DNA from: Cyanobacteria bacterium FACHB-471
GTDB taxonomy: Bacteria > Cyanobacteriota > Cyanobacteriia > Elainellales > Elainellaceae
Assembly: GCA_014695345.1 (NCBI GenBank)
Contig: JACJOC010000058.1
Location: forward strand, 248,001 to 312,000
DNA: 64,000 bases
Direction: 5' to 3'
Part shown: positions 53,757 to 59,355 of the stretch, one piece after another
Position numbering within the stretch: position 1 is the stretch's first letter
Layout of the letters: every line of letters begins with the position of its first letter
The notes under the pieces: model-generated
Databases searched by the model: none
What the model was told of the DNA's origin: nothing
What the model saw: the letters and a program-made list of their open reading frames with translations, nothing else
Program-made: the position numbers and the translations under genes

Positions 53757-54536
53757 TCAAGAAGTAGAGAGCATTTGCAGAATTTTAGCCGCGTCCTCTA
53801 AGTTTCCGGCAATACGTCGAACTGGCTTCGGCCAAACCTTAACCAGGGTTGGAGTAGCCGCAACTTGATCTGCTTCTGCCTGCTCAGGGTGCTTGTAGAT
53901 GTCAACAACCTTCAGCGTGTAGGGTTGCTGAAGAGATTTTTCTAAGAGCTGATGCAGATTTTGCAGAATACGTTCTGTAGCGGAATTATGTCCTGCAATA
54001 AACAACCGCAACACGTAGCCTTGGGAAGGCGGATCTAATTTTTGAGGTGACCAGGAAAGCGCTGTGTGTCTGCTTTCGAGTGAGTAGGAGTGAGGTTCTG
54101 CTTGAAGCCGAACGACCAGATCATGCTCCTCCCAAAGCTGGGGAAATTGTTGGCGATAGCTAGCTAAAACAAGCGGGTCACAGAGTTCTTCCTGCCGAGG
54201 ATCTGTCTCCCAAACCAAATCTTCCATTGCAAAAATCGCATTAAGCAATGCTTGATGCGATAAAACTCGGGGACAAGCCTCTGCAGAGATTTGAATTTGC
54301 TGTGTTTTAGGGTCAAGCCAACGGTCAATGGTTGCTGTGTAGCAGGGCAACAAAAAATGGGGAGGCTCAACCAACCCCAGCATCTCCTGCAATACTGAAC
54401 AAAGTTGCAGATGCCAACGGCTCTGCTTGTGGGGATCAATGCAATACACCAAATCCCCACCTGGCGTAAATAAAGCAATTCCCTTAAAGAGACCTGGGTT
54501 CTGAGTTTTGAGTGCTGAATCGGAACTGTAACTCAT
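53757..54536 (-). CDS. Protein with C-terminal KaiB-like domain
   Basis: A 259-aa protein. Residues 173-257 match the thioredoxin-like KaiB fold of the circadian clock: YVLRLFIAGHNSATERILQN, the strand TLKVVDIYKHPEQAEAD, and the signature ATPTLVKVWPKPVRRIAGNL. The first 165 residues are a separate domain I cannot name (LFKGIALFTPGGDLVYCIDP, then HFLLPCYTATIDRWL). It is not SasA, as no kinase follows. The first 15 residues are encoded by a heptad-repeat region, so the true N-terminus is uncertain. It lies 27 bp downstream of pilT on the same strand and is probably co-transcribed. Confidence 0.82.
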   Translation of the reverse strand: MSYSSDSALKTQNPGLFKGIALFTPGGDLVYCIDPHKQSRWHLQLCSVLQEMLGLVEPPHFLLPCYTATIDRWLDPKTQQIQISAEACPRVLSHQALLNAIFAMEDLVWETDPRQEELCDPLVLASYRQQFPQLWEEHDLVVRLQAEPHSYSLESRHTALSWSPQKLDPPSQGYVLRLFIAGHNSATERILQNLHQLLEKSLQQPYTLKVVDIYKHPEQAEADQVAATPTLVKVWPKPVRRIAGNLEDAAKILQMLSTS

Positions 54537-54561
54537 GACTCAAAACTCACAACTCAAAACT
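54503..54561. repeat. Heptad repeats and inverted repeat over the KaiB-like gene start
   Basis: CAAAACT, CACAACT, CAAAACT (54541-54561) follow a degenerate heptad CATGACT that contains the complementary start codon. An 11-bp perfect inverted repeat (GAGTTTTGAGT at 54503, ACTCAAAACTC at 54538) straddles the start. It resembles short tandemly repeated (STRR) sequences of cyanobacteria. Confidence 0.7.
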
Positions 54562-54563
54562 CC

Positions 54564-55895
54564 CTAAACGCGACCGCGCAAGATTTGTGCCATTTCATTG
54601 GGTTTAGGCGACATTTCCAGAGCCGTTTCTTCAGTGATCCGCCCTGCTTCGTATAGCTTGTAGAGCGATTGGTTCATTGTACACATGCCGTCAAAGGTAC
54701 ATCTAGGAATAATTGCTTCAACTTCGTCAATTTCCCCACGCCGAATGTAGTCTTTAATTGCGTCTGTGTTGATCATGATGTCGTGGAAAGCAGCCCGTTT
54801 GCCGTCCGTGGTGCGACATAGACCTTGAGCGATGACAGCAACCAGAGATTCAGCGATCGCCACCCGCATGGGAGCCTGCTGATCTGGCTCGTACAGGCTT
54901 AGAATCCGCTCAATCGTCTTCACAGCACTGTTGGTGTGCAGCGTTCCCATAACCAAGTGTCCGGTTTGGGCTGCTTTAAGTGCCGTGTTCACCGTTTCCT
55001 TGTCTCGCATTTCACCAATCAGAATCACATCTGGGTCTTCCCGCAAAGAAGACTTCAGTGCCCGGTCAAATTCGAGCGTGTGAATTCCGACTTCCCGCTG
55101 TTTGATCAAAGCTTTGCGGCTCTGGTGGACATATTCAATTGGGTCCTCAATCGTGATGATGTTTTTGGGCATCTCCTTATTGATGTAGTCCACCATTGCT
55201 GCCATCGTTGTGGACTTACCAGAACCCGTTGGACCTGTCACTAACACTAAGCCTTTGTGATAGTGACAAATGTCTTTAAATACCAGGGGCAGATTCAACT
55301 GCTCAATGGTCAGGATTTTCAGCGGAATCAAACGCATAACCAGCGCCGGACCCCTGAGCGAATCGAACAAGTTTACCCGTACCCTGGCAAAGTCGTATTG
55401 AGCCGCTCCGTCAAAGTCAAGCGTTTCCTTAAACCGCTTGATTTCCATGTCCGACAGGATTTCTTTAAGCCAACTGAAAAAGGTTGACTCATCCGTAACA
55501 GGGTAATCCGTAAGGTCCATTTCACCCCGGTTGCGGAAGCGAGGAACCTCACCCACACCTGCATGGATATCAGAAAATCCTTTATCAAAGGCTTCTTTGA
55601 CAAGCTGCGCCAAGGTAGGCGAACCAGGCGTGACTTTATTAACCCGCGAACTCTGCACTGGAGGGGGTGCAGCAGGTCGATGTCCTGCTGGCGGTGGCGG
55701 CGGTTTCACAGCCGGTGCAGTAGCCTCGTGGGTCATAGGAGCGGTGTTCACCGAAGTAGCTGTAGGGGTCCCCAAAGTTTGAGAAGGCACCTGCGTAGCT
55801 CCGGCAGATGCATGGGGCGCAGCCTGTCTCGGGGGCGGGGGAGGGGGAACCCGATGAGCAGGAGGAGGGGTGAGCGGACGCTGTGCTTCTGTCAT
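54564..55895 (-). CDS. pilT: Type IV pilus retraction-type ATPase, PilT family
   Basis: A hexameric motor ATPase for pilus retraction, twitching and phototaxis. The core (about 93-440) has Walker A GPTGSGKS (221-228), the Asp box IITIEDPIEYVHQ, Walker B DPDVILIGEMRD and the His box TGHLVMGTLHTNS. Ahead of it lie about 90 Pro/Ala/Thr-rich residues, a disordered extension. The sequence resembles the PilT2 paralogue of Synechocystis more than PilT1, but this is from memory. No other pil genes adjoin. Confidence 0.92.
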   Translation of the reverse strand: MTEAQRPLTPPPAHRVPPPPPPRQAAPHASAGATQVPSQTLGTPTATSVNTAPMTHEATAPAVKPPPPPAGHRPAAPPPVQSSRVNKVTPGSPTLAQLVKEAFDKGFSDIHAGVGEVPRFRNRGEMDLTDYPVTDESTFFSWLKEILSDMEIKRFKETLDFDGAAQYDFARVRVNLFDSLRGPALVMRLIPLKILTIEQLNLPLVFKDICHYHKGLVLVTGPTGSGKSTTMAAMVDYINKEMPKNIITIEDPIEYVHQSRKALIKQREVGIHTLEFDRALKSSLREDPDVILIGEMRDKETVNTALKAAQTGHLVMGTLHTNSAVKTIERILSLYEPDQQAPMRVAIAESLVAVIAQGLCRTTDGKRAAFHDIMINTDAIKDYIRRGEIDEVEAIIPRCTFDGMCTMNQSLYKLYEAGRITEETALEMSPKPNEMAQILRGRV

Positions 55896-56235: not shown

Positions 56236-59200
56236 CTATACGGGCTGCTGAAGCTGCTGACGATGTAGCTCTAGGGTCGTTTTAACTCTCTGATACTCCG
56301 CTTCAAGACTAGTCAGCTTTTCCTGGATTTCGGCTTCGCTGATGCTTGTTTTGTTGATTTGATCAGGATGTTCCATCGTCCAGCGTTCTAGTCTTTGGCA
56401 GATATCCGCCAGGTGGGTGGCTCCGACGGCAGCACTGGTTGACTTCAAGGTGTGAGCAGCTTGCTGCAAGGCACTAGGGAGATCAGCAGTTCCTGCTTCG
56501 CGCATAGCCCGCAGTAGGCGAGGTGCATCTTCCAGGTAGATGTCAATGATTTCAAACAGGACGTCCCGATTTTGTTCTCGCCCGATCGCCTGCAGCTCTT
56601 GTAAAACTTTGAGGTCAATGGCTGGCGATAGTTCGTTTCTGGAGAGCGGTTGGCATTTTTTTAGCGCTTGGACTAGTTTCTCGATCCGAATTGGTTTGCT
56701 GAGATAGTCATCCATGCCTGCGATGAGGCATTCTTCGCGATCGCCCGTCATTGCTCCTGCTGTCATCGCAATAATGCGCGGACGATTTGCAGGTTGCCAG
56801 TCCTGACAGATCTGGCGAGTTGTGGCGATGCCGTCCATTTCTGGCATCTGCACGTCCATCAATACGACATCATAGGCTTGACGATGTAGCGACTCAAGCA
56901 CTTCCCGTCCATTGCAAACGACATCAGCTCGATACCCGATGCGTTGGAGGAGGTGCAAAACAACTTTTTGGTTGACAACGTTATCTTCTGCTAAGAGGAT
57001 CTTCAGCGGCAACTGTTGAGATAGGGGTAATTCAGTTGGGCTAGTAGCAGGTTGAGATGGCTGCATCTGAATCGGTTGTCTACCCAGAATGCGAACTAAA
57101 ACATCATGAAGTTGAGCTTGCTTAACAGGTTTGTGAAGCAATGCCTTGAAGCTGGCGATGGTTGTTGCATGGGCATCTCGTTCCAGGTTGACCATCGAGG
57201 TTAGCATGACGAGCGGCAAACGCAGGTAACTGGGTTGCCTACGAATCGCGGTGGCTAGGGTTAGCCCGTCCATGTTGGGCATCTGCATGTCGAGAATGGC
57301 GATGTCAAACAAATCGGGCTGTGTTAGCCAACTTAAAGCCTCTGCGCCAGAGGCAGCAGCGCGACTAGACATGCCCCATGCCTGAGCTTGAAGGGTGAGA
57401 ATTTGGCGGTTGGTGGCGTTGTCATCGACGATCAAAAGCCGCTTTCCGACGAGGTAGTCTGCATGAAGGGAGCGATCGCCCGTTTCAAAGTTAGGCGCTA
57501 CCTGAGTCAGGATCGTGAAATAGAAGGTGGAACCTTGACCGACCTGGCTCTCAACCCACATTCTGCCGCCCATCATCTCACTCAAATTTTTGCTAATGGC
57601 AAGTCCTAGTCCGGTCCCTCCATAGCGACGATTAGTAGACGAGTCTACCTGGCTAAACGACTTAAACAACCGATCCATGCGGTCTGCCGGAATTCCAATG
57701 CCCGTATCTTTGACTGCAAATTGAATCTTGTAAACCGGGCAAAACTCGTTATCTAGTTTTTTGTCTGCCGATTTTTGAATTGACTCGACGGAGACGATTA
57801 CCTCACCTGAACTCGTAAATTTGACGGCGTTGCTGATCAGGTTGACTAGAATTTGGCGCAGTCGGGTGACATCTCCCACAATGAATTGAGGGGTTTGAGG
57901 CTCGATCAGGTAGCCCAATTCCAGACCTTTTTCGGCAGCTTTAGGTGCCAGTAAGTCAAGGGATTCTTCGATGCATTCACGCAAGCTGAAGGGTTGGCGT
58001 TCTAAATCGAATTTGCCAGATTCGATTTTAGAAAAATCCAAAATGTCGTTGATGATAGTGAGCAAAGCATCGCCGCTGGTGCGAATGGTTTCAACGAAGT
58101 CTTGCTGCTGCGGGTCAAGCGGAGTGTCTAACAGCAACCCAGTCATGCCAATGACTGCATTCATAGGGGTGCGAATTTCGTGGCTCATGTTTGCCAAAAA
58201 TTCGCTTTTTGCCCGATTCGCAGCTTCGGCTTCTCGTTTTGCTCGTTCTAGAGCAAAGTTTTTAAGCGCTAGTTCTTGGCGCTGAAGCTTTTCCTGCTCT
58301 AATAGGTGAGCCTGCGTGAGTGCGATCCCAACTTGGGCAGCGACAGCTTCTAGTAGCTCGATTTCATCATCTGTCCATTCGCGGAAGTGATCGCACTGAT
58401 GTAGCTCGATGATTCCGTTTGGCTCGTTGTTATACGAGGTGCGGACTGCTAGCAGCGACTTTAAGTGAGCTTGATGATAGATTGCGAGTGCAGGAGATAG
58501 AAGTGGTTCTGCGTAGACATTAGGGAAGGCGATCGCCTGATCACGAGCTAGCAAACCCTGCATGTAGGGATTGGCAACAGCAGGAATTTCCAACTTTAGA
58601 ACTGACTGATATTCAGCTTCTAAATATTCAGCTACGCAAGGAGCTTTGGGCACTGGTGCAGCAATGTAAGTGCGGATTACGCAGTGGTTTACTTCAAATG
58701 CTTGACCAATTTGTGTTGCTGTAGTTTGAAAAATCTGCTGAATGTCCAAACTTTGGCGAATTTCCTCGGTGATTTTCTTCAGTAGCAAGGCCCGATGGAT
58801 TTGGTGCTGGAGACTATCTTCTGCCTGCTGTCGCTGTTTCAGGGCTTTTTCTACAGTTTTCAGGTTATGGCGCAGTTCCAACTGAGTGACAACTTGACGT
58901 GCTAAAACTCGCAGAGTTTCTTGTTGCTCAAGGCTTAAGTTTCGCGGCACAAAGTCAATGACACAAAGTGAGCCTAATGTGAAACCATCGGGCGTGACTA
59001 ACGGCGCACCCGCATAAAACCGAATATGTGGATCTGCAGTCACTAGAGGATTGTTAGCAAATCGTGGATCTGCCAGAGCATTAGGTACAATCAGCAAGGC
59101 TTCGGGCTGAAGCACCGTATGAGCACAAAAGGCAACATTTCGTGGGGTTTCTGATGCGTCCAGCCCAACTTTTGACTTAAACCACTGTCGCTTAGCATCG

Positions 59201-59355
59201 ACTAAACTAACCAACGCGACGGGAGTTTGGCAGATCTGGGCGGCCAGCCGAGTCAAGTCGTCAAAAGCAGCCTCAGGAGGAGTATCAAGAACTTCACATC
59301 GGTTAAGTGCTTGCAACCTTAAAGCTTCATTTTCTGGCAATGGAGCGACTTGCAT
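56236..59355 (-). CDS. Hybrid sensor histidine kinase (GAF-GAF-HisKA-HATPase-REC-REC-Hpt)
   Basis: A 1039-aa soluble phosphorelay protein. GAF1 is about 20-160 ([20 protein letters not shown], later [13 protein letters not shown]). GAF2 is about 200-350. A coiled coil runs to the HisKA box with phosphoacceptor H392 ([19 protein letters not shown]). The ATPase has [22 protein letters not shown] and [10 protein letters not shown]. Two receivers follow ([11 protein letters not shown] with [21 protein letters not shown] with [10 protein letters not shown]). The Hpt domain has its His in [14 protein letters not shown]. No Cys typical of bilin-binding GAFs is evident. There is no partner gene adjacent. 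Confidence 0.95.

Follow-up and report, generated by a model that had tools for sequence, protein, structure and literature searches.

Elongated KaiB and related clock and pilus proteins

Elongated KaiB was described in 2017 (Schmelling et al., passages of PMC5520375) as a KaiB with approximately 150 extra N-terminal residues, highly conserved, found in cyanobacteria only and most similar to KaiB1. Its C-terminal domain was later named KaiB-4, and NMR analysis of this domain from T. vestitus showed a monomer that is stable in the fold-switched, thioredoxin-like state (PDB accession no. 8UBH); the role of the protein was left open (Wayment-Steele et al. 2023, passages of PMC10808063). In canonical KaiB, L60 is a documented KaiC-contact residue, and the G89A/D91R substitutions give the fold-switched state and fast KaiC binding (PMC8059507). 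SasA does not possess the lateral-contact residues and binds KaiC non-cooperatively (PMC6769508).

Two PilT homologues have been distinguished in cyanobacteria. PilT1 is part of the pilBTC locus. The second, PilT2, has a proline-rich N-terminus and an unsettled function; a pilT2 mutant of Synechocystis has been reported with negative phototaxis (2025 review, PMC12288463).

Organisation of the kaiB4 locus

The window analysed here is a 64,000-nucleotide stretch of contig JACJOC010000058.1 of Cyanobacteria bacterium FACHB-471. The features of the locus, all on the minus strand, are as follows (basis of each assignment in brackets):

54564..55895, minus strand: pilT2-type retraction ATPase with a Pro-rich N-terminus, 443 aa (TIGR01420)
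54537..54563, minus strand: 27-bp spacer from the pilT2 stop to the kaiB4 start (sequence)
53757..54536, minus strand: kaiB4 (elongated KaiB), 259 aa, N-terminal domain, linker and KaiB-4 domain (ORF, PF07689)
54117..54536, minus strand: N-terminal domain, residues 1-140 of the kaiB4 product (AF2 model of residues 1-150)
54021..54116, minus strand: variable linker, residues 141-172 of the kaiB4 product (weakly conserved, gapped in alignment)
53760..54020, minus strand: KaiB-4 (thioredoxin-like) domain, residues 173-259 (PF07689 and PDB match 8UBH)

KaiB is the sole Pfam match of the kaiB4 product (PF07689, residues 177-257, E 3.5e-27; 94.4 bits against a gathering score of 27), and no kinase domain was found in it. 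The signatures ATPTL (residues 227-231) and PVRRIAGNL (residues 238-246) are present. The best PDB match is 8UBH (E 1.9e-23), the C-terminal domain of the KaiB-4 family and the closest solved relative. The protein scores 78.4 bits with the equivalog model for the circadian oscillator KaiB (TIGR02654), under its cut-off of 145.3. The KaiB fold, its two signatures and the position of the gene 27 bp downstream of pilT on the same strand, as given in the initial annotation, are thus all borne out. The annotation also spoke of a fused, unnamed domain of 165 residues: an extra N-terminal region is indeed there, though it is made up of a conserved domain of approximately 140 residues followed by the variable linker (approximately 141-172). 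The fusion itself had already been described in 2017 (passages of PMC5520375).

The window protein is a member of the published elongated KaiB/KaiB-4 family, from which it shows no architectural difference. Twenty diverse KaiB-4 members align with it over their full length at 44-63% identity and have the elongated KaiB architecture, and 416 elongated KaiB loci were counted among GTDB genomes. This genome encodes its canonical KaiB separately, together with KaiC (contig C103); the homologous domains of the two proteins are 43% identical. Unlike canonical KaiB, KaiB-4 carries the extra N-terminal domain, has no C-terminal tail and is altered at the positions of G89, D91, R23, K26 and E84. SasA is likewise a separate gene in this genome (contig C63; L001). 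KaiB-4 resembles SasA in that a KaiB-type domain, here probably held in the thioredoxin-like state, is fused to a partner domain and the lateral KaiB-KaiB contact residues are absent; it differs in that the KaiB domain is C-terminal and that there is no kinase domain.

The neighbouring ATPase scores 455 bits with TIGR01420 (cut-off 319). A second PilT of the same genome, 39% identical to it, is located beside PilB (contig C32). Because the PilT of the window possesses a proline-rich N-terminus (residues 1-90), it is classified by sequence as a pilT2-type protein outside pilBTC, and its counterpart is Synechocystis sll1533, a second PilT that is also proline-rich at the N-terminus and encoded outside pilBTC. 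PilT2 calls in other genomes were made by identity to this PilT (E below 1e-135) and not from a tree.

Upstream of pilT2, on the same strand and 340 bp away, lies an ORF of 1039 aa (56236-59355, minus strand), which by eye resembles a GAF-type hybrid histidine kinase with receiver and Hpt domains. It is not among the neighbours common to several kaiB4 loci.

Conservation of the linkage with pilT2

A phylum sample of 194 genomes was searched, and an intact full-length kaiB4 homologue was identified in 55 of them, that of the window included. Neighbourhoods of 6-11.7 kb around kaiB4 were fetched for the other 54. In 50 of these 54, pilT2 is located upstream of kaiB4 on the same strand (within 390 bp in 48), and the linkage spans 18 families, counting that of the window and including T. 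vestitus. No other neighbour comes close, the two next commonest families of ORFs being seen at 29 and 20 loci. With pilT2 recurring beside 50 of 54 homologues and the next family in 29 loci, the linkage is not attributable to chance. In a second collection, the 80 best loci from GTDB 220, it was found in 67 of the 76 whose upstream DNA was long enough; the exceptions are mostly Scytonema, Brasilonema and relatives (L108, L118, L124, L135, L142, L160). The conserved pilT linkage that the initial annotation proposed to survey is therefore found in both collections, and the two genes are presumably co-transcribed. An ORF of 129 aa divergent from pilT2 (L034, 8102-8491, plus strand) is found again and again, in 29 sampled loci.

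Four sampled loci have kaiB4 without an adjacent intact pilT (L051, L056, L057, L073). Both genes are present, unlinked, in genomes G185 and G191 (L051, L057), G051 (L056) keeps kaiB4 and has no pilT2-type gene, and L073 belongs to the reduced genome G183 discussed below. Within the class, 53 genomes encode both genes, two kaiB4 only, 25 pilT2 only and nine neither (Fisher p 0.002, with shared ancestry ignored); pilT2 is thus often present without kaiB4. Synechocystis has been described with kaiB1, kaiB2 and kaiB3. None of these three is known to be an elongated KaiB.

The same arrangement surrounds the solved KaiB-4 domain. The 84 residues of 8UBH that align to the window protein occur at 100% identity within an ORF of genome G089, and the upstream same-strand neighbour of this ORF is PilT2 (L086). 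The solved domain therefore comes from the same operon-like arrangement. The words pilT, pili and motility do not occur in PMC5520375, and neither the pilT2 linkage nor retention without pili features in the passages of PMC5520375 and PMC10808063. A search of 5.39 million open-access papers returned no report of KaiB-PilT linkage. In that literature the genes around the solved domain and the persistence of kaiB4 in pilus-less genomes (described below) likewise appear to be unreported.

Retention of kaiB4 in genomes without pili

One genus allowed a comparison of larger genomes (G143, G203 and G204; 4.6-5.2 Mb) with reduced ones (G147, G183, G205 and G206; 2.5-3.1 Mb), which, going by size, might be those of endosymbionts. 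The pilT2-kaiB4 pair is intact in the three larger genomes. No intact PilT or PilB was found in the four reduced ones, nor was a secretin in a search that covered these four along with G143 and G203. Circadian KaiC is kept in all seven. Three reduced genomes (G183, G205 and G206) still have an intact kaiB4, while in the fourth, G147, it is a pseudogene, with a pilT2 relic upstream (L088, 5905-6303). Relics of pilT2 also lie upstream of intact kaiB4 (L186, 1137-1337; L189, 2398-2616), and in-frame stops within the relic are common to G183 and G205, so pilT2 was probably dead before these two genomes split.

Between G183 and G205 the relic and spacer are 85% identical, and kaiB4 differs at 28 synonymous and 16 non-synonymous sites (pN/pS 0.16, Fisher p 6e-10). 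The ratio is 0.09 for the KaiB domain and 0.23 for the N-terminal domain with linker. Other pairs of reduced genomes gave 0.24 and 0.28 for the whole gene, and the KaiB domain is the most constrained part in the pilus-less genomes (0.09-0.20). These low ratios show that purifying selection on kaiB4 has persisted in the absence of both PilT2 and a pilus. Motility control, the putative function suggested in the initial annotation, was set aside as the only role since the gene is constrained in genomes lacking pilus motors and secretin.

Clock-protein contacts and fold state

Residues were mapped in T. elongatus KaiB numbering across the 20 diverse KaiB-4 members. Y40, K43, K67 (K/R), R74 and R75, which we take to matter for contact with KaiC or KaiA, are kept in 16-20 of the 20, and the position of I59 is hydrophobic. 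The lateral KaiB-KaiB contact positions R23, K26, E84 and D91 are not conserved across this set, nor is that of G89. The L60 position is occupied by S, A, T or Q in the family, and that of A41, which is on the KaiA/CikA-binding strand, by T or S. A review names Lys42 (S. elongatus numbering) among the KaiB residues that have been mutated.

The fold switching put forward in the initial annotation is not expected, because the fold-switched state is the stable one for the T. vestitus domain (8UBH; passages of PMC10808063); G89 and D91 are also not conserved. On the grounds of 8UBH and the loss of these two residues, a fold switch in the literal sense was rejected as the mechanism, and the KaiB-4 domain of the window protein is probably locked in the thioredoxin-like shape. 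The kept positions (Y40, K43, K67, R74, R75 and a hydrophobic residue at I59), the loss of the lateral-contact residues as in SasA, the changes at G89 and D91 and the missing tail point to a putative SasA-like reader of KaiC without the fold-switch delay.

The N-terminal domain

The conserved part of the N-terminal domain comprises approximately 140 residues (17-140 in alignments). An AF2 model of residues 1-150, built with 75 sequences (pLDDT 79.6, pTM 0.73), has the order b-b-a-b-b-a-a; a full-length model with 42 close homologues (pLDDT 50) was of insufficient quality to judge the fold state of the KaiB domain. No convincing sequence relative of the N-terminal domain came from profile searches of Pfam and PDB. 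Searches with the AF2 model gave a best Foldseek hit at E 0.059 and a best VIA-align Z of 3.9 (rmsd 3.9 over 82 residues), with weak matches to the ADF/gelsolin-like fold that do not stand out. The strand-helix order had prompted a look for longin, profilin and roadblock folds, none of which was among the fold matches listed. No stand-alone copy of the domain was seen in the 194 genomes of the phylum sample.

Possible roles of KaiB-4

The explanation that we favour, tentatively, is that KaiB-4, constitutively fold-switched, reads the KaiC ring non-cooperatively and brings its N-terminal domain along, PilT2 being its operon partner and probably one client. The C-terminal KaiB domain would be held in the thioredoxin-like state and would dock on the KaiC CI ring without cooperativity, as the N-domain of SasA does, with no slow fold switch. 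Once docked, it could recruit or displace partners through its N-terminal domain in dependence on the time of day. Expression of kaiB4 from the pilT2 transcript would make PilT2 and the type IV pilus a probable client in most species, with an additional role that needs no pilus. KaiC docking, dependence on the clock, contact with PilT2 and any effect on pili are all predictions of this model. Of the 55 kaiB4 genomes, 54 also encode a circadian KaiC, among them all three pilus-less genomes with an intact kaiB4; this co-occurrence is weak evidence because KaiC is near-universal in the class. The changed L60 and A41 positions count against KaiC reading, as do the loss of kaiB4 in one of the four pilus-less genomes (G147) and its absence from 25 of the 78 pilT2 genomes in the class.

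It is possible, if rather unlikely, that KaiB-4 is instead an accessory of PilT2, a KaiB-type domain docking directly on a RecA-like hexameric ATPase and tuning retraction or phototaxis with KaiC uninvolved. The near-universal adjacency in 18 families, its recurrence in the second collection (67/76) and the presence of pilT2 in 53 of the 55 kaiB4 genomes of the class are what such an accessory would leave, the association (Fisher p 0.002) again ignoring shared ancestry. However, G183, G205 and G206 all lack PilT, PilB and secretin yet have an intact kaiB4 under constraint, and in G183 and G205 this gene adjoins a pilT2 relic in which the two genomes share in-frame stops; furthermore, G051 has kaiB4 without pilT2, and in G191 and G185 the two genes are unlinked. 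That KaiB-4 is just a pilus part is unlikely.

Retention without pili but with KaiC, and the stronger constraint on the KaiB domain than on the rest of the protein in those genomes, would also suit a component of the clock only, which competes with KaiB and SasA at KaiC and shapes phase or output, its linkage to pilT2 reflecting shared expression timing. The 'kaiB3' transcript of Cyanothece 51142, reported to oscillate in constant light (PMC4431719), is in keeping with such a role. It is probably that of an elongated KaiB, because the primers listed for cce_0435 (PMC3854555, table) translate in frame to HHLLET and VSATPT, which are typical of KaiB-4; the kaiB4 loci that were fetched contain no match to these primers. 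This explanation, which we consider somewhat improbable, leaves unaccounted for the same non-clock partner kept adjacent in 18 families. A KaiB-fold stress or scaffold protein outside the clock, whose thioredoxin-like and N-terminal domains bind other partners, is very unlikely. Non-clock KaiB homologues do exist and crystallise in the same state (passages of PMC10808063), the KaiB of Legionella has a reported role in stress response, the score is under the circadian equivalog cut-off (78 vs 145 bits) and the L60 and A41 contacts are changed; yet the basic and aromatic KaiB positions are conserved and KaiC occurs in nearly all kaiB4 carriers.

The near-universal adjacency of kaiB4 and pilT2 ties together two genes of unexplained role, and the pilus-less genomes show that this link cannot be the whole story. 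In its broadest form, which is a doubtful extension of the favoured reading, KaiB-4 would join SasA and CikA as one more output arm of the clock that reads KaiC: its KaiB domain, permanently fold-switched, would carry an effector domain found only in cyanobacteria, and the protein may convey time of day directly, without transcription, to PilT2 and to a second, pilus-independent target.
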